A stretch of 64,000 nucleotides of DNA from Marivivens niveibacter. GTDB lineage: Bacteria; Pseudomonadota; Alphaproteobacteria; Rhodobacterales; Rhodobacteraceae. Location of the stretch: assembly GCF_002150005.2 (NCBI RefSeq), contig NZ_MSPP01000003.1, positions 372,001-436,000 of the forward strand, written 5' to 3'. The notes beneath the pieces are model-generated. The model saw only the letters and a list, made by a program, of their open reading frames with translations. It was not told the DNA's origin and did not search any database. The translations under genes and the position numbers were made by a program. Shown piece by piece: positions 3,978 to 61,503 of the stretch (the stretch's first letter is position 1; each line of letters opens with the position of its first letter).

Positions 3978-4994
3978 TCAGGTGTTGTACAGGCCTTCGT
4001 AGATCGGAACCAAAGTGTTGTCCTCGAACAGGGACGAGACCGACGTACCGTTCCACGTGTTCAGGATCGCCTGAGTGAACATCGGCGCAGTCGGCACGAT
4101 GCGGATGTTTGGCGTCGCCATAACTGCATCGGTCGGTTGGATCGAATCCGTCAGAACCAGCGTTTTCAGGTGGGAATTTTTCACGCGCTCGACGGCTGGG
4201 CCGGACATAACACCATGCGAGATATAGGCGTGCACTTCGGATGCGCCTGCGTCCATCAGGTGCTCTGCTGCTTTGCACAGGGTGCCAGCGGTGTCGCAAA
4301 GGTCATCAACGATGATACATTTTTTGCCTTCGACCGAACCGATCACGGTCATTTCGGCAACTTCACCTGGCTTTTCGCGACGCTTATCAACGATCGACAG
4401 TGGTGCATCGATGCGTTTTGCCAATTCGCGTGCGCGGGCAACGCCGCCGACATCAGGGGACACGACCATGATGTCGTCCGTTGCGCCTTTGAAATGGTGT
4501 TTGATATCCAGCGCAAAGATCGGCGCGGCATACAGGTTGTCCACCGGCATATCAAAGAAGCCCTGAATCTGCGCTGCGTGCAGGTCCATGGTCAGAACGC
4601 GGTCAACGCCAGCTTCGGCGATCAGGTTGGCGACCAGTTTCGCGCTGATGGGTGTACGCGCTTTGGTGCGGCGGTCCTGACGGGCGTAGCCGAAATATGG
4701 GATCACTGCGGTGATGCGGCCGGCCGACGAACGCTTCAGCGCGTCGGTGATGATCAGCAATTCCATCAGGTTGTCGTTTGCTGGGTTCGACGTTGGCTGA
4801 ATGATGAACATATCTTCGCCGCGGACGTTTTCGTAGCATTCGACGAAAATCTCTTGGTCGTTGAATCGTTCGACGCGGGCGTCGACCAGATCAACATTCA
4901 TGCCGCGGTGCATGGACATGCGGCGGGCAATAGCAGTGGCAAGAGGTTTGTTAGCGTTCCCCGAAATCAGTTTCGGTTCAGTGATCGTGGGCAT
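3978..4994 (-). CDS. prs: Ribose-phosphate pyrophosphokinase
   Basis: Makes phosphoribosyl pyrophosphate from ribose 5-phosphate and ATP, feeding purine, pyrimidine, histidine, tryptophan and NAD synthesis in the cytoplasm. The 338-residue product has the expected N-terminus ([19 protein letters not shown]), the ATP-binding flexible-loop region [15 protein letters not shown], the metal and ribose-phosphate region [17 protein letters not shown], and the PRPP loop [12 protein letters not shown]. The open frame extends upstream, but the conserved start is the ATG at 4994. It is transcribed alone and ends at a shared terminator. Family assignment is certain. Confidence 0.97.
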
Positions 4995-5131
4995 GTGGCA
5001 GGGTTCCCCGGATGTGGCCCGTCTATATGACGGATTCGTGACGCAGGGGTGCCGTAGCACAGCATTGCCATTTGGCAAACATCTAGGAAATGAAATCGGT
5101 TTAAATAATGCCAAACCGCGTCATGTTAGCG

Positions 5132-6181
5132 TTATCTGTTTTGTAGCGCTGACAGAAATTGCTGCACATCGGCGGGCGTTGTCGACCAGCTGGTAACCAA
5201 CCGCCCGATGGCGTCACCTTTCGCGTTGAAATCGGCTGTGTCGGGCCAAGGGTTATAGCGGGCACCACTAGCGATCATGTGGCGGTGCAACGAATTTGGC
5301 ATCGACGCGAAAACCATGTTGGCGTCAATAGGGTGGGCCAGCGTTATACCGTCTATCTGCGCCAATCCCTGCGCCAATTCGGCGCCCATCGCGTTGGCAT
5401 GTGTAGCAAGGTCAATCCACAGGCCGTCCGTAACAAATGCATCCATCTGCGCCGACAGATAGCGGTGTTTCGAAAATAGGTGTCCCCCGCGTTTGCGGCG
5501 CAGTTCAAACTCCCACGCGCGCTTAGGGTCGAATATGATCACAGCCTCGCAGCCCATCAGGCCGTTTTTCGTGCCGCCAAATGACAGGACATCTATGCCA
5601 GCCTTCCATGTCATTTCGGCTGGTGTCGCGCCAGTTGCCGCGATGGCATTGGCGAACCTTGCGCCGTCCATATGGCAGGGCAGGTCGTAGTCGCGCGCGA
5701 CGGCGGTCAGTGCCGCGATTTCGGCGGGAGTATAGACTGTGCCGTGTTCGGTAACGTTGGTGATCGACACTGCGCCGCGCTGCATTCCGTGGACACCGCC
5801 GCAGCCCGTGGCGGCGATCACGCTGCGCAGGGTGTCTGGTGTCATTTTGGCGTGTTCGCCATCCACCAGCGCTAGTTTCCCGCCGTTCATGTAAAATTCA
5901 GGCGCGCCGCATTCGTCCTCTTCTATGTGGGCGTTCCGGTGGCAGAAAACGGTTTGATAGGACGCGTTCAGGATCGATAGCGACAGCGCGTTTGCGGCCG
6001 ATCCCGTGGCGACCAGATAAATGGCAGCCTCTGGCGCGTCGAAAATGTCGCGCAGTTTGGTGCGGACGCTGTCCATGATGGGATCGTTGCCGTAGGACGG
6101 CATGTAGCCAGAGTTTGCCTTTGACAGCGCCTCCATCACTTTGGGGTGGACGGGGCTGGTGTTGTCAGAGGCGAAAAACAT
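5132..6181 (-). CDS. ltaE: Low-specificity L-threonine aldolase
   Basis: PLP enzyme of the beta-eliminating lyase family, 349 residues, predicted to cleave L-threonine or L-allo-threonine to glycine and acetaldehyde. The N-terminus FFASDNTSPVHPKVMEAL, the HRNAHIEEDECGAPEF block and the PLP lysine in SFGGTKNGL (about K205) are characteristic. The chosen ATG at 6181 overlaps the stop of the upstream YcgN-type gene as TAATG, which indicates translational coupling; the frame stays open a little further upstream. Stereospecificity toward threonine isomers cannot be read from the sequence. It may supply glycine to other pathways. Confidence 0.9.
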   Translation of the reverse strand: MFFASDNTSPVHPKVMEALSKANSGYMPSYGNDPIMDSVRTKLRDIFDAPEAAIYLVATGSAANALSLSILNASYQTVFCHRNAHIEEDECGAPEFYMNGGKLALVDGEHAKMTPDTLRSVIAATGCGGVHGMQRGAVSITNVTEHGTVYTPAEIAALTAVARDYDLPCHMDGARFANAIAATGATPAEMTWKAGIDVLSFGGTKNGLMGCEAVIIFDPKRAWEFELRRKRGGHLFSKHRYLSAQMDAFVTDGLWIDLATHANAMGAELAQGLAQIDGITLAHPIDANMVFASMPNSLHRHMIASGARYNPWPDTADFNAKGDAIGRLVTSWSTTPADVQQFLSALQNR

Positions 6182-53568: not shown

Positions 53569-54966
53569 TTATTCGACCTTATAGGGTAGAGTAGAGCGCA
53601 AATTCGGATCAACGGTCAGGCGTCGTTCCAAAGGCGGCACTGACCGTTGGTGGCAATCTTTGCGTTCGCAGATACGGCAGGAAATGCCGATCGGCTCGTA
53701 TGCTGCGGCTGAATCGATATCCATGTGGTCTGCATAGACCAGCGATTTTGCGTGTTTGACTTCGCAGCCTAGGCCAATTGCAAATCGACGGGTGGGTGCG
53801 TGATAGGACCCGCCCGATTTTGTTGCGTCCCGCGCAAGGCAGAAAAACCGCACGCCGTCGGGCGTTTCCGCCAATTGGCGCAGCCAGCGGTTAGGGCTTT
53901 CGAACGCGCGGTGGACGTTCCACAATGGGCACGCGCCGCCATATCGGGCGAACTGTAGCTGCGTTGATGAATGTCGTTTGGTGATCGTCCCCGCAGGATC
54001 GACACGCACGAAATAGAACGGAATCCCTTTGTTCCCTGGGCGCTGCATCGTCGATAGGCGGTGGGCGACCTGTTCGACGGACGCGCCAAACCAATCGGCC
54101 AATCGTTCCAAATCGTGGCGGCAATCTTTGGCCGCGTCCAGAAATCGGCCATAGGGCATCATGGCGGCCCCTGCAAAATAGTTTGCAAGGCCTAGTTTGG
54201 CGATTGAACGGGCCTCGGGGGTTTGGAAACGGCCCAAATCCAATGTCGCCTCTAGCAGCGGATCTTTGGTCAGCAGGGCCATTTGCAGGATCAATTGGAA
54301 CGTCTGCGTTGCGACCGTCTGGCGCCGCGACAGGGTCAGGCGGCGGCTTTCTTTGTCATAGTGGCGGATGGCATCGGTGTCGGCAAAGACGATGGATATG
54401 CCCCGCGCCTCTAGCGTTTTTATCGCCATGTCGCGGATATTCAGCCCGCCCGCCTGCTGTGCGAAAATCTCGGCGGCGCGATCCACGGCGTCGATGTAAT
54501 TGTCGCAATAGTGAAAGAAGTCGCGCACCTCTTCCCATGGGGATGGTTGCAATCTTGCGTCTTCTCGGCCCAATGCTTCGTCCAAGCTAGCAAGGCGTTC
54601 GTGGGTTTGGCGGTAGGCGGAATGTAGGTCCAAAAGGGCACGAGCCAGCGCGGGTGCATTACTGGCCGCAAGTCGCAAATCTGATAGCGACGGCGCGCTG
54701 CCTGTGAACACCGGATCGGCCAGCGCCTCTTTCATGTCCGATATCAGGCGGGCTTCGTCGCCAGATTGCAATTCGGTCACGTCGAACCCGAATTCTTGGG
54801 CCAGTGATAAAACGACCGCCGTGGAAATCGGGCGGTTGTTGTTTTCCATCTGGTTCAGATAGGGCAGGGACACGCCCAGTTTTTCGGCGAACGCCTTTTG
54901 CGTCAGGCCAAGCCGTCCGCGCAATTCCCGCAGTTTCACACCAGCGTATAATTTCTGAACGGCCAT
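53569..54966 (-). CDS. pccR: Short-chain fatty acyl-CoA regulator PccR (ScfR family)
   Basis: A 465-residue regulator with an XRE-type helix-turn-helix at residues about 12-45 (LRELRGRLGLTQKAFAEKLGVSLPYLNQMENNNRPIS), a ScfR/IrrE-like middle domain, and a C-terminal cysteine-rich segment (ISCRICERKDCHQR). This layout matches the ScfR family, in which PccR of Rhodobacter sphaeroides controls propionyl-CoA carboxylase genes. It lies near pccB and pccA here, and TTTGCAAA-like motifs stand directly ahead of it and of pccB. Regulation by an acyl-CoA is inference from the family. Confidence 0.9.
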   Translation of the reverse strand: MAVQKLYAGVKLRELRGRLGLTQKAFAEKLGVSLPYLNQMENNNRPISTAVVLSLAQEFGFDVTELQSGDEARLISDMKEALADPVFTGSAPSLSDLRLAASNAPALARALLDLHSAYRQTHERLASLDEALGREDARLQPSPWEEVRDFFHYCDNYIDAVDRAAEIFAQQAGGLNIRDMAIKTLEARGISIVFADTDAIRHYDKESRRLTLSRRQTVATQTFQLILQMALLTKDPLLEATLDLGRFQTPEARSIAKLGLANYFAGAAMMPYGRFLDAAKDCRHDLERLADWFGASVEQVAHRLSTMQRPGNKGIPFYFVRVDPAGTITKRHSSTQLQFARYGGACPLWNVHRAFESPNRWLRQLAETPDGVRFFCLARDATKSGGSYHAPTRRFAIGLGCEVKHAKSLVYADHMDIDSAAAYEPIGISCRICERKDCHQRSVPPLERRLTVDPNLRSTLPYKVE

Positions 54967-54975
54967 GGGCGCACC

Positions 54976-55013
54976 TTTGCAGAATGGGTTAGCTGCAAAG
55001 TTACGTTTGCAAA
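54976..55013. promoter_or_regulatory. Candidate PccR sites upstream of pccR
   Basis: TTTGCAGA (54976), GCTGCAAA (54992) and a perfect TTTGCAAA (55006) lie within 47 bases of the pccR ATG (54966). The first two are 16 bases apart. ScfR proteins are reported to bind TTTGCAAA-type repeats, so autoregulation is likely. Confidence 0.65.
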
Positions 55014-55018
55014 GTCAT

Positions 55019-56230
55019 TCAGGCAAGTGTGGCTTCGCGCCGCATGACCAATAGAATGGACAGTAATGACAAGGCGCCACAAGTCACCATCAGGATCGAA
55101 AGGGGCAATTCGCCATAGTCGGGGTTCAGCATAGACCCCGCAAAAGCCGAAATCGCAGCCCCGCCGCCCATCATAATCGCTGCGCCCAAACCTGATGCGG
55201 TGCCCGCTAATTCGGGGCGTACGGACAGCGATCCCGCTGTGGCGTTTGGCATGGTCAGTCCATTGCCCAGCCCCATGAATGTGATCAGGCCGAAAAACAC
55301 CAGCGCGCTGGAAAGGTCGAGGATGGAAAGGATCATCGACACGACCAGTCCGAACAAAGTGACACTGCAGCCGATCAAGATCAGCAGATTGATCCCGGCC
55401 CGAACGGAATATCGCCCTGACAGGAAATTCCCGACCAAATAGCCGGTTGTTGGTGCGGCTAGTGCGATCCCCGTTTGCGTCGGGGTTAGGTTGAATACTA
55501 CGCTTGCTACGAACGAAGCACCACCCAGCAGCGCATAGTAAGCCCCCGCGGTGAAGGTCGTGCATGCGACGTAGCCCCAGAAACGAACCGATCGGAATAG
55601 TTCGGGGTAATTTGCCGCTTGTTGGCGGAACGTCAGGCCGGTGCCTTTGGCGGTTTCGCCCTGATCAAAATAGCTCAGCGTCCAGATGCCGATTGCGCAG
55701 GCCGCAAGGAACGTAAAGCTGGCCTGCCATCCCGCGATCTGATCCAACGCGCCGCCAATAATCGGGCCGACCATTGGGACAACAGCCATACCCATCGTCA
55801 CATAGCCCAGTTTAGATGCGGCCTGATCGGTTGGGTAAATGTCGCGGATAACAGCGCGGCTGATCGTCATACATGCGGCGACGGATGCCTGCATCATGCG
55901 GCAAAACAGGAAAATCCAAACGTTTGGCGCAAAGATTGCGGCAACAGTCGCGGCAATGAACATCCCCAGAAACCACAAAACGATCGGGCGTCTGCCATAT
56001 CGGTCTGACAACGGCCCGACGAACAGCATCAAAATTGCAGTCATCAGGAAATATCCCGACACTGCAAACTGCATCACGCTGTAATCTGTCGCAAAGTACT
56101 GCGTCATCCCATTTAGGGACGGCAGAAAAATCGACATGTTCAAGGCGGAAATGCCCGTCAACAGAATGAGTGTGGACACATGCGGCGGGGTGCTTCGGTC
56201 CAGTAACTTTATGGGTGCTGAAGTGGTCAT
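55019..56230 (-). CDS. Bcr/CflA-type multidrug MFS transporter
   Basis: A 403-residue major facilitator with about twelve helices, N-terminus cytoplasmic. The motif A loop between helices 2 and 3 is [15 protein letters not shown], and the later [20 protein letters not shown] is the drug-H+ antiporter motif C, which points to the Bcr/CflA group of exporters. Substrate unknown. It lies between pccR and pccB, divergent from pccB and sharing its motif-rich promoter region, and reads toward pccR after a 52-base gap. Confidence 0.88.
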
Positions 56231-56289
56231 GGGGGATCGTTAGACCGTTTGATCAAATCTGTCTATCGTGCGGGTTTCGCAAACGCGAA

Positions 56290-56345
56290 TTTGCATTTTT
56301 GCAAAAAATAAATGCTGCAAATGCAAAAATTTGCAAATTTGCCCA
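56290..56345. promoter_or_regulatory. Array of TTTGCAAA-like motifs before pccB
   Basis: Perfect TTTGCAAA copies start at 56298 and 56330, with a GCTGCAAA at 56314 exactly 16 bases from each, plus weaker copies at 56290, 56320 and 56338. The palindromes TTTTTGCAAAAA (56296-56307) and AAATTTGCAAATTT (56327-56340) are included. The array lies 68 bases ahead of the pccB ATG and 60 bases ahead of the divergent MFS start. Confidence 0.7.
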
Positions 56346-56412
56346 ATTTCATTTGCTCGGTAATTTTATTGCGTCTACAACACCATTAACGATCGTTCGG
56401 AAGGGAACCAAT

Positions 56413-57945
56413 ATGACCGATATTCTGGCTGAACTCCAAAACCGCCGTGACGTGGCCCGTTTGGGTGGTGGTCAAAAAAGGATCGACGCGCAGCACGCCA
56501 AAGGCAAGCTGACCGCGCGTGAACGTATCGAACTGCTGCTGGATGAAGGCAGCTTTGAAGAGTTCGACATGTTCAAGTCGCACCGCTGCACCGAATTCGG
56601 CATGCAAGACCAGCAAATTCCGGGCGATGGCGTTGTGACTGGTTGGGGCACGATCAACGGCCGTATGGTTTACGTATTTTCGCAGGACTTCACTGTTTTC
56701 GGCGGTTCTCTGTCGGAAACCCACGCTGAAAAGATCTGCAAAATCATGGATATGGCGATGCAGAACGGCGCGCCTGTCATCGGTCTGAACGATTCCGGCG
56801 GCGCACGTATCCAAGAAGGCGTTGCATCGCTGGCAGGATACGCGGACGTATTCCAGCGCAACATCATGGCGTCGGGCGTTGTTCCACAGATTTCTGTGAT
56901 CATGGGGCCATGTGCGGGCGGCGCGGTGTATTCGCCTGCGATGACCGACTTTATCTTTATGGTGCGCGACAGTTCTTACATGTTCGTGACCGGTCCTGAC
57001 GTTGTGAAAACCGTGACCAACGAACAGGTCACCGCCGAGGAATTGGGCGGCGCGTCGACTCACACCAAAAAATCGTCGGTGGCGGATGGCGCGTTTGAAA
57101 ACGACGTAGAGGCATTGGCCGAGGTCCGCCGTCTGGTCGATTTCCTGCCGCTGAACAACCGCGAAAAACCGCCCGTTCGTCCGTTCTTTGACGAAGTGGA
57201 CCGTGTCGAGGAATCGCTGGATACCCTGATCCCCGATAACCCGAACACGCCATACGACATGAAGGAACTGATCCATAAAATCGCAGACGAAGGCGATTTC
57301 TTTGAGATCCAAGAGGACTACGCCAAAAACATCCTGACCGGTTTCATCCGCATGGAAGGTCAGACCGTCGGCGTCGTTGCGAACCAACCTATGGTTTTGG
57401 CCGGCTGTCTGGACATCGATTCGTCGCGCAAAGCGGCGCGTTTCGTGCGGTTCTGTGATGCGTTCGAAATCCCGATCCTGACTCTGGTCGATGTTCCCGG
57501 TTTCCTGCCAGGCACCAGCCAAGAATATAATGGTGTTATCAAACATGGCGCGAAACTGCTGTTCGCCTATGGCGAAGCGACCGTACCAAAAGTCACCGTG
57601 ATCACGCGTAAAGCGTACGGTGGTGCATATGACGTTATGGCGTCCAAACACCTGCGCGGCGATTTCAACTACGCTTGGCCAACTGCGGAAATCGCGGTGA
57701 TGGGTGCCAAAGGTGCGGTTGAAATTCTGTACCGCAACGAATTGGGCGATCCTGATAAAATCGCGGCCCGCACCAAAGATTACGAAGACCGTTTCGCCAA
57801 CCCGTTTGTGGCTGCCGAAAAAGGTTTCATCGACGAGGTGATCCAGCCGCATTCCACACGTCGCCGCGTTTCTCGTGCCTTCGCCAGCTTGCGCAACAAA
57901 AAGCTGACGAACCCGTGGAAAAAGCACGACAACATCCCGCTGTAA
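56413..57945 (+). CDS. pccB: Propionyl-CoA carboxylase beta subunit
   Basis: A 510-residue carboxyltransferase that moves CO2 from biotin to propionyl-CoA to give methylmalonyl-CoA. The N-terminal [46 protein letters not shown] is the PccB signature, and the oxyanion-hole stretches [16 protein letters not shown] and [17 protein letters not shown] are present. The ATG at 56413 fits homologues and has GGGAACC upstream; the frame runs upstream through the motif array. The alpha subunit gene pccA follows about 1.6 kb later. Confidence 0.96.
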
Positions 57946-59502: not shown

Positions 59503-61503
59503 ATGTTCAAAAAGATCCTGATCGCTAACCGCGGCGAAATTGCCTGCCGCGTGATTAAGACCGCCCGCAAGATGGGCATCCAAACGGTTGCCGTCTATTC
59601 GGACGCGGATAAGAACGCTCTGCACGTGCGCATGGCGGACGAGGCTGTTCACATCGGCCCAGCCCCTGCGAACCAGTCCTACATCGTGATCGACAAAATC
59701 ATGCAGGCGATCAAAGACACCGGCGCCGAAGCTGTTCACCCCGGTTATGGTTTCCTGTCTGAAAACGCCAAATTTGCCGAAGCGTTGGAAGCTGCTGGCG
59801 TTGCATTCATTGGCCCACCAGTTGGCGCAATTGAATCGATGGGCGACAAAATCACGTCGAAAAAGATCGCTCAAGAAGCCGAAGTAAACACCGTTCCCGG
59901 CTACATGGGACTGATCGAAGACGCGGATGAGGCCGTGAAGATTTCCAACGAAATCGGCTATCCTGTGATGATCAAAGCGTCGGCAGGCGGCGGCGGTAAA
60001 GGTATGCGTATCGCATGGAACGACCAAGAGGCTCGCGAAGGTTTCCAGTCGTCCAAAAACGAGGCTGCAAACAGCTTTGGCGATGACCGTATTTTCATCG
60101 AAAAATTCGTCACGCAGCCGCGCCACATCGAAATTCAGGTTCTAGCCGATACCCATGGCAACGCGGTTTACCTGCACGAACGCGAATGTTCGATCCAGCG
60201 CCGTAACCAAAAAGTCGTCGAAGAAGCGCCTTCGCCATTCTTGGACGAAGCCACCCGCAAAGCCATGGGCGAACAGTCCGTCGCGCTGGCCAAAGCGGTG
60301 GGTTACGCATCCGCAGGCACCGTGGAATTCATCGTCGACGGCGACCGCAATTTCTATTTCTTGGAAATGAACACCCGTCTGCAGGTGGAACACCCTGTGA
60401 CCGAATTGATCACGGGTATCGATCTGGTCGAACAAATGATCCGCGTCGCGGCTGGTGAAAAGCTGCCGATGAAGCAAGAAGACCTGAAAATCAACGGCTG
60501 GGCGATTGAAAACCGTCTGTACGCCGAAGATCCATATCGCAACTTCCTACCGTCGATTGGTCGTCTGACCGCCTACCGCCCACCTGTCGAAGGCAAAACC
60601 GCAACTGGCGGCATCGTGCGTAACGACACGGGCGTGTTCGAAGGCGGCGAAATTTCGATGTATTATGATCCGATGATCGCGAAACTGTGTACTTGGGGCG
60701 AAACCCGCGCCGACGCGATCGAAGAAATGCGCGTCGCTTTGGATACGTTCGAGGTAGAAGGCATCGGCCACAACCTGCCGTTCGTTGCGGCCGTCATGGA
60801 TCACGAACGTTTCACCAGCGGCAACATGACCACCGCGTTCATCGCCGAAGAATATCCCGAAGGTTTCGAAGGCGTGACCTTGCCGAAAGAGGCGTTGGTT
60901 AAACTGGCGGCCGCCGCCGCTGCGATGAACCGCGTTGCTGAAATCCGCCGCACGCAGGTTTCGGGCCGTCTGGGTAACCACGAACGCCGCGTAGGCACCG
61001 ATTGGGTTGTGTCGCTGCAGGGCGAAGAATTCGCTGTGTCGATTGACGCTGATCGGGATGGTTCGACCGTGTCTATCGATGGTCAAACCCTGCGCGTGGA
61101 ATCGGATTGGACGCCTGGCGATAGCCTTGCCCGTCTGACCGTTGGCGGCGAACCTTTGGTCGTTAAGGTCGGCAAAATCACCCAAGGTTTCCGCATGCGT
61201 TTCCGCGGTGCCGATCTTAAGGTTCACGTTCGCAGCCCACGTCAGGCCGAATTGGCAAAACTGATGCCGGAAAAACTGCCGCCGGATACGTCGAAACTGC
61301 TGCTGTGCCCAATGCCGGGTCTGATCGTGAAAATCGATGTGGCTGTTGGCGACGAAGTGCAAGAAGGTCAGGCCCTGTGCACCGTTGAAGCGATGAAGAT
61401 GGAAAACATCCTGCGCGCAGAACGCAAAGGTGTTGTGAAATCGGTCAACGCTGCGGCGGGCGACAGTCTGGCTGTGGACGATGTGATCATCGAATTCGAA
61501 TGA
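59503..61503 (+). CDS. pccA: Propionyl-CoA carboxylase alpha subunit (biotin carboxylase and carrier)
   Basis: A 666-residue protein with an N-terminal biotin carboxylase (KILIANRGEIACRVIKTARKMG, ATP-grasp GGGGKGMR, EMNTRLQVEHPVTE), a BT linker domain and a C-terminal biotin carrier domain with the biotinylated lysine in EAMKMENILRAE (K632). It carboxylates biotin for the PccB transferase. The ATG at 59503 has AAAGGA 9 bases upstream. It lies about 1.6 kb after pccB behind a hairpin terminator, and is followed by the sulfotransferase-like gene. Confidence 0.96.
   Translation: MFKKILIANRGEIACRVIKTARKMGIQTVAVYSDADKNALHVRMADEAVHIGPAPANQSYIVIDKIMQAIKDTGAEAVHPGYGFLSENAKFAEALEAAGVAFIGPPVGAIESMGDKITSKKIAQEAEVNTVPGYMGLIEDADEAVKISNEIGYPVMIKASAGGGGKGMRIAWNDQEAREGFQSSKNEAANSFGDDRIFIEKFVTQPRHIEIQVLADTHGNAVYLHERECSIQRRNQKVVEEAPSPFLDEATRKAMGEQSVALAKAVGYASAGTVEFIVDGDRNFYFLEMNTRLQVEHPVTELITGIDLVEQMIRVAAGEKLPMKQEDLKINGWAIENRLYAEDPYRNFLPSIGRLTAYRPPVEGKTATGGIVRNDTGVFEGGEISMYYDPMIAKLCTWGETRADAIEEMRVALDTFEVEGIGHNLPFVAAVMDHERFTSGNMTTAFIAEEYPEGFEGVTLPKEALVKLAAAAAAMNRVAEIRRTQVSGRLGNHERRVGTDWVVSLQGEEFAVSIDADRDGSTVSIDGQTLRVESDWTPGDSLARLTVGGEPLVVKVGKITQGFRMRFRGADLKVHVRSPRQAELAKLMPEKLPPDTSKLLLCPMPGLIVKIDVAVGDEVQEGQALCTVEAMKMENILRAERKGVVKSVNAAAGDSLAVDDVIIEFE

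Follow-up and report, generated by a model that had tools for sequence, protein, structure and literature searches.

Conserved motif clusters at pccR and pccB point to a probable small PccR regulon in Marivivens niveibacter and related Rhodobacteraceae

The pccR-pccB locus and its regulator

The window, that is, the whole 64-kb stretch of Marivivens niveibacter DNA analysed here, carries pccR, an MFS transporter gene and pccB in this order, the former two on the minus strand and pccB on the plus strand (Table 1). pccB lies within 1.5 kb of pccR, which places the regulator gene beside the propionyl-CoA carboxylase genes. The original prediction described the MFS gene and pccB as divergent, which holds, and theirs is the only divergent pair; the MFS gene shares its strand with pccR and is located directly upstream of it, so the predicted layout needs correction in this respect.

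PccR scores 227 bits against PF09856 (cut-off 24), and the C-terminal ScfRs domain is accompanied by an N-terminal HTH (HTH_3, HTH_31) and by Peptidase_M78. It also resembles the chains of the MtPrpR structures (E about 1e-85) in an alignment spanning residues 59-463, in which Cys346 and C430-X2-C433-X4-C438 align with the cluster ligands of MtPrpR. In the latter, the [4Fe4S] ligands are Cys363 and a C-X2-C-X4-C motif (excerpt of PMC6765138). PccR reaches 424.1 bits against the NCBIfam RamB model NF038139, under the curated cut-off of 700, which leaves it outside that group. Domains and MtPrpR similarity agree with the predicted identity, and assignment of the regulator as a PccR-type ScfR protein is supported. 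For the transporter, the TIGR00710 (Bcr/CflA) score of 193.6 bits over residues 18-394 falls just under the cut-off of 200.9, and we describe the protein as Bcr/CflA-like without assigning it to that family.

Table 1. Genes, boxes and putative promoter elements of the pccR-MFS-pccB region (positions in the window).
Feature	Position	Strand	Basis or remark
pccR, ScfR-family regulator, 465 aa	53569..54966	-	PF09856 ScfRs E=1.3e-67; Peptidase_M78, HTH domains; A of the ATG at 54966
MFS transporter, Bcr/CflA-like, 403 aa	55019..56230	-	PF07690 151.6 bits
pccB, carboxyltransferase subunit	56413..57945	+	PF01039 679 bits
pccA, biotin carboxylase subunit with PCC_BT domain	59503..61503	+	PF18140 139 bits, others
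Box 3 of pccR leader, TTTGCAGA (TCTGCAAA on minus strand)	54976..54983	.	Downstream of putative -10; one mismatch
Half-site GCAAA of pccR leader, centre 54995	54995..54999	.	Overlaps putative pccR -10
Putative pccR -10 TAACTT	54998..55003	-	Inferred from alignment of 79 leaders
Full box TTTGCAAA	55006..55013	.	Between putative pccR -35 and -10; 40-47 nt before pccR ATG
Putative pccR -35 TTGCCT, 17-nt spacer	55021..55026	-	Inferred from leader alignment
Putative MFS -10 TAACGA, 6 nt before ATG	56237..56242	-	Inferred from alignment of 53 loci
Putative MFS -35 TAGACA, 17-nt spacer	56260..56265	-	Inferred from alignment of 53 loci
Box array between MFS and pccB	56276..56342	.	Full boxes 56298-56305, 56330-56337; one-mismatch copy TTCGCAAA 56276-56283
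Tandem core TTTGCAAATTTGC of MFS/pccB array	56330-56342
Further half-sites of array 56276..56342	centres 56279, 56293, 56317, 56323
Putative pccB -35 TTGCTC	56353..56358	+	Inferred from alignment of 72 loci on core box
Putative pccB -10 TACAAC	56376..56381	+	Inferred from alignment of 72 loci on core box

Two clusters of TTTGCAAA-type motifs

We counted TTTGC or GCAAA as a half-site and TTTGCAAA as a full box. Two motif clusters, one near the pccR start and the other between the MFS gene and pccB, had been described at this locus and are present; between them they hold three perfect and two one-mismatch copies of the full box (Table 1). The MFS/pccB spacer has GC centres at 56279, 56293, 56301, 56317, 56323, 56333, 56341 and 56355, amounting to eight half-sites in 80 nt, a density reached by none of 200 random 64-kb sequences generated with a first-order Markov model. 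The maximum per 80 nt in these sequences was two half-sites in two cases, three in 139, four in 57, and five and six once each. When the Markov model was built on the spacer itself (56231-56412), one sequence in 2000 attained eight half-sites. One of the eight, at 56352-56356, shares bases with the putative pccB -35 and need not be a binding site.

The pccR leader contains three half-sites in 31 nt (centres 54979, 54995 and 55009), and a group this dense occurs somewhere in 101 of the 200 random 64-kb sequences as well. Taken alone this cluster could therefore be a chance event, and its case rests on conservation. Over the whole window, TTTGCAAA shows no clear excess, either as perfect copies (5 against 2.06 expected, with 9 of 100 shuffles getting to five) or with one mismatch allowed (47 against 40.4 expected), so the argument is placed on clustering and conservation rather than on totals. 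Centre distances in the window are 14, 16 and 30 bp at pccR, and the array includes 8, 32 and 40 bp, each twice, among others.

Boxes are conserved in relatives and co-occur with PccR

The original prediction had proposed a search for the motif in related Rhodobacterales, which we carried out on the nearest PccR relatives, keeping the best 80 of 579 (genome contigs, 72-86% identity in the best segment). The named ones among them belong to Rhodobacteraceae/Paracoccaceae, Cereibacter sphaeroides being absent. By tblastn, the MFS gene was found in 72 and pccB in 73 of these 80 loci; one locus (L053) starts 128 nt before pccR, where neither gene could appear. With the window added to the best 80 of 579, 80 of 81 loci have half-sites no more than 90 nt from pccR, the lone exception (L049) having an extrapolated start, and a full TTTGCAAA is located within this distance in 73. 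For pccB, a full box is found within 200 nt upstream in 72 of 74 loci of the same set (all except L056 and L073), compared with a mean of 0.22 loci expected after mononucleotide shuffling.

A second comparison covered 25 genomes of the family, our own included; a PccR ortholog (54-100% identity) is encoded in 20 of them and missing from five (best match at 41% identity or less, or none; one of these five, G014, is only 82% complete). At least three half-sites within 160 nt of pccB were present in 19 of the 20 genomes with PccR against none of the five without (Fisher 1.1e-4), the exception being G010, with PccR and no half-site in that interval. As the genomes are related and the events not independent, the Fisher value is to be taken as support and not as a probability. 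The positions of the boxes, their conservation and their co-occurrence with pccR are direct observations. Conservation at both genes together with the co-occurrence makes PccR self-regulation and PccR control of pccB, as originally predicted, well supported by sequence.

Further candidate targets in the genome

Pattern scans of the own genome returned 15, 14 and 3 matches against 12, 11 and 1 for the reversed pattern, so match numbers say little by themselves. The two clusters account for 8 of the 29 matches of the first two scans and for 2 of the 3 of the third. Most other matches of the first two scans fall within open frames at least 100 codons long, and the intergenic ones outside the clusters include sites at prpE, mce, mmsA, a ZnuA/Fur gene pair and two others (L094, L095).

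The prpE gene, encoding a propionate-CoA ligase by the best NCBIfam match of its partial sequence, has full boxes at G000:C6:279507-279514 and 279555-279562. At least three half-sites within 200 nt of prpE were found in 14 of 19 genomes with PccR versus none of five without (Fisher 0.006), and in all seven genomes of the genus; in this count G015 was left out, its match starting at residue 97, and G013 was included despite having no full box. Eight of the 14 box-positive prpE regions show centres near -182, -133, -123 and -100 and a TTG-TA element near -57. On this pattern prpE is likely a member of the PccR regulon.

In the own genome, mce (methylmalonyl-CoA epimerase) is preceded by TTTGCAAA and GCAAA 31 bp apart, and was rejected as a conserved target, with at least three half-sites within 200 nt in one of 20 genomes with PccR (G002) and none of the five without. 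A TTTGCAAA-N9-GCAAA pair, whose centre distance of 14 bp also occurs in the pccR leader, was observed at G000:C7:49452-49473 (locus L098, 1501-1522), between a LysR-type gene and mmsA. With 623.6 bits against TIGR01722 (cut-off 448.5), the product of mmsA is a CoA-acylating methylmalonate-semialdehyde dehydrogenase, an enzyme that generates propionyl-CoA, and mmsA is a possible candidate for a further PccR target.

Between a ZnuA-family and a Fur-family gene, TTTGCAAATGATTTGC-type sites occur at G000:C6:15357-15390 (loci L091, L264); this is likely a metal-regulator site resembling the PccR box. The genome also encodes a second, distant ScfR-like frame of 431 aa at G000:C1:728568-729833 (L002, L003, L201; PF09856 48.6 bits), and other family genomes contain weak ScfR-like matches of the same sort.

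Putative promoters and a model for PccR action

A consensus scan of 54900-56450 returned no promoter, and two terminator-like sites, not more than in shuffles, so promoter calls rest on alignments of relatives. When 72 pccB regions (among the best 80 of 579 plus the window) are aligned on their full box, the sequence after the box shows a CTT-like -35 followed by a TA-like -10; the strict form of this pattern is present in 56 of 74 loci and missing in 18, counts given without a shuffled control. Of the 81 pccR leaders (best 80 of 579 plus the window), 61 have a box flanked by TTG and TA elements, against 4.88 with shuffled flanks, and the strict pattern is missing in the remaining 20; among 68 TTG/TA matches in these leaders, 39 have a 17-nt spacer. 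A box between -35 and -10 usually blocks RNA polymerase. The box inside the putative pccR spacer makes self-repression most likely, and the boxes just upstream of the putative pccB -35 make PccR most likely an activator there.

We consider the following picture probable as a whole. The boxes would be operators for PccR, encoded beside them. At pccB, paired tandem boxes with centres 8 bp apart, and a second set 32-40 bp further upstream, lie just before the putative -35, and PccR, with a short-chain acyl-CoA bound, is most likely an activator of pccB and of the genes that follow. At pccR, one box falls in the spacer between the putative -35 and -10, a second follows about 21 or 30 bp downstream of it, and repression of this promoter by PccR itself is most likely. 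The propionate-CoA ligase gene prpE, elsewhere in the genome, is most likely also under PccR, at least in this genus. The MFS gene would be an old neighbour with its own promoter, on which an effect of PccR is possible and unneeded. Binding, ligand and promoters are here deduced from the sequence patterns, and we infer the sign of regulation from the putative promoter elements.

In this picture, a propionate regulator already described gains a probable small regulon (pccR, pccB, prpE) in many Rhodobacteraceae. The picture thereby sets likely targets apart from a transporter that may be a mere neighbour, and offers a testable rule in which box position gives the sign: upstream of -35 for activation, inside the spacer for self-repression.

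Weighing other readings

The sign at pccR could be the opposite, PccR activating its own gene, given that it is read only from putative promoter elements and that 20 of the 81 leaders (best 80 of 579 plus the window) lack the strict pattern; the box between -35-like and -10-like elements in the other 61, and RamB of M. tuberculosis, which represses its own gene (excerpt of PMC3420887), make self-activation rather unlikely. The boxes might also serve another regulator altogether. A Fur-type metal regulator would fit the similar TTTGCAAATGATTTGC sites between the ZnuA-type and Fur-family genes, and the second, distant ScfR-like frame would provide another candidate, but the boxes at pccB and prpE are absent from all five family genomes without a PccR ortholog, four of which (all but G020) still have a weaker ScfR-like match, and we regard this reading as highly improbable.

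More evidence bears on the proposal, made in the original prediction, that the shared array works in both directions, with PccR also activating the divergent MFS gene as an exporter of a toxic short-chain acid. In its favour, 72 of 80 loci (best 80 of 579) carry the MFS gene upstream of pccR, and the 58 insertion-free loci (among the best 80 of 579 plus the window) have a mean of 4.07 half-sites within 150 nt of it. Against it stand, to begin with, the insertion loci, the 15 of 73 loci (among the best 80 of 579 plus the window) that have both genes and more than 260 nt between them. None of these 15 has a full box within 150 nt of the MFS gene, whose start is extrapolated in nine of them, and their half-sites in that interval total eight, close to what chance would give (0.51 per 150 nt); by contrast, in 14 a full box lies no more than about 100 nt from the pccB ATG, and the remaining one (L073) has four half-sites within 200 nt of pccB. 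The distance from box to ATG is likewise more variable on the MFS side in insertion-free loci of this set: for the MFS gene (n=47) the median is 70 nt to the nearest half-site (sd 17.9), 109 nt to the nearest full box (sd 20.0) and 113 nt to the core box (sd 11.4), whereas for pccB (n=57) it is 70 nt to the first full box with an sd of 7.8. Finally, in three family genomes (G012, G017 and G024) the MFS gene lies beside pccB, at about 580 nt in G024, with neither a PccR ortholog nor full boxes, and with 3, 2 and 0 half-sites, respectively, in the 190 nt before the MFS gene. In G022, PccR and the boxes at pccB are present with no MFS match at E<=1e-60.

The MFS gene also appears to have its own promoter: GAC-N17-20-TA ends near the ATG in 48 of 53 loci against 2.74 expected, the 53 being those of the best 80 of 579 plus the window in which the alignment begins at residue 1. 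The pattern is kept in five of the six insertion loci among them, with L005 lacking the strict form. At 56231-56265 of the window and across the 53 loci, we see a TGGACA-like and a TA element with about 6 nt from -10 to ATG, a distance suggesting a leaderless mRNA, and the MFS transcript is possibly independent and leaderless. Direct control of the MFS gene by PccR is accordingly unlikely in our estimate, the same holding for the two-way array, and export of a toxic acid by the transporter finds no support. A wider version, in which one ScfR array responds to propionyl-CoA overload by turning on both carboxylation through pccB and an MFS efflux valve, with PccR damping itself and setting propionate activation via prpE, we think quite unlikely; the predicted substrate would be a short-chain acid or a toxic by-product, and there would then be a functional reason for the transporter's old linkage to pccR and pccB.

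Gene insertions recur in the pccB-MFS spacer of relatives. The inserted gene was read in three of these loci and encodes a DMT_6/DUF486 protein in L005 (4329-4688), a serralysin-like RTX protein in L066 (3311-4675) and a proline-racemase-family protein in L076 (3641-4687). All three point in the MFS direction, so read-through from the array into the MFS gene is possible at these loci. In L032, a LysR-like frame (4704-5552) sits between the MFS gene and pccR.

Comparison with known ScfR systems

The system belongs to the already known PccR/ScfR kind, to which our analysis adds architectural detail and a probable further target. PccR of Rhodobacter (Cereibacter) sphaeroides, from the work of Carter and Alber in 2015, reportedly recognizes TTTGCAAA-X4-TTTGCAAA, with centres 12 bp apart. 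The R. sphaeroides system is alike in having an ScfR regulator beside the pcc genes, a TTTGCAAA-type motif upstream of pccB and a role in propionyl-CoA assimilation, and differs in this spacing, the commonest centre distances here being, for pccB, 8, 40 and 32 bp and, for the pccR leader, 30, 8, 22 and 21 bp (best 80 of 579 plus the window). A distance of 12 bp is absent from the window array and does not rank among the 20 most frequent distances at either gene, and we treat the X4 spacing as a detail reported for one species that does not define the PccR family. The recurring distances of 8, 21-22, 30, 32 and 40 bp could aid modelling of tetrameric ScfR proteins on DNA.

Among published accounts, pccB of C. 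sphaeroides is described as being under PccR control (PMC12632250), and R. capsulatus grows less well on propionate when pccR is deleted (PMC10370305). Within the excerpted parts of PMC10370305, PMC6765138, PMC3420887, PMC9195938 and PMC12632250, neither prpE nor an MFS gene is named as a PccR target.

PrpR of M. tuberculosis shares family and domains with PccR, as well as the conserved [4Fe4S] cysteines and the type of site: MtPrpR binds and protects TTTGCAAA and TTTGCgAA, one base apart (excerpts of PMC3420887 and PMC6765138). It differs in controlling the methylcitrate cycle (prpDC) and not propionyl-CoA carboxylase, and in centres 9 bp apart. A site made up of two boxes is described as common for ScfR proteins, and the class 2 RamB of Paracoccus denitrificans, of the same family, has two near-identical boxes that are both needed for activity (excerpt of PMC10370305), differing from the arrangement described here in its 18-bp spacer, its glyoxylate-cycle operon and its ligands from the ethylmalonyl-CoA pathway.
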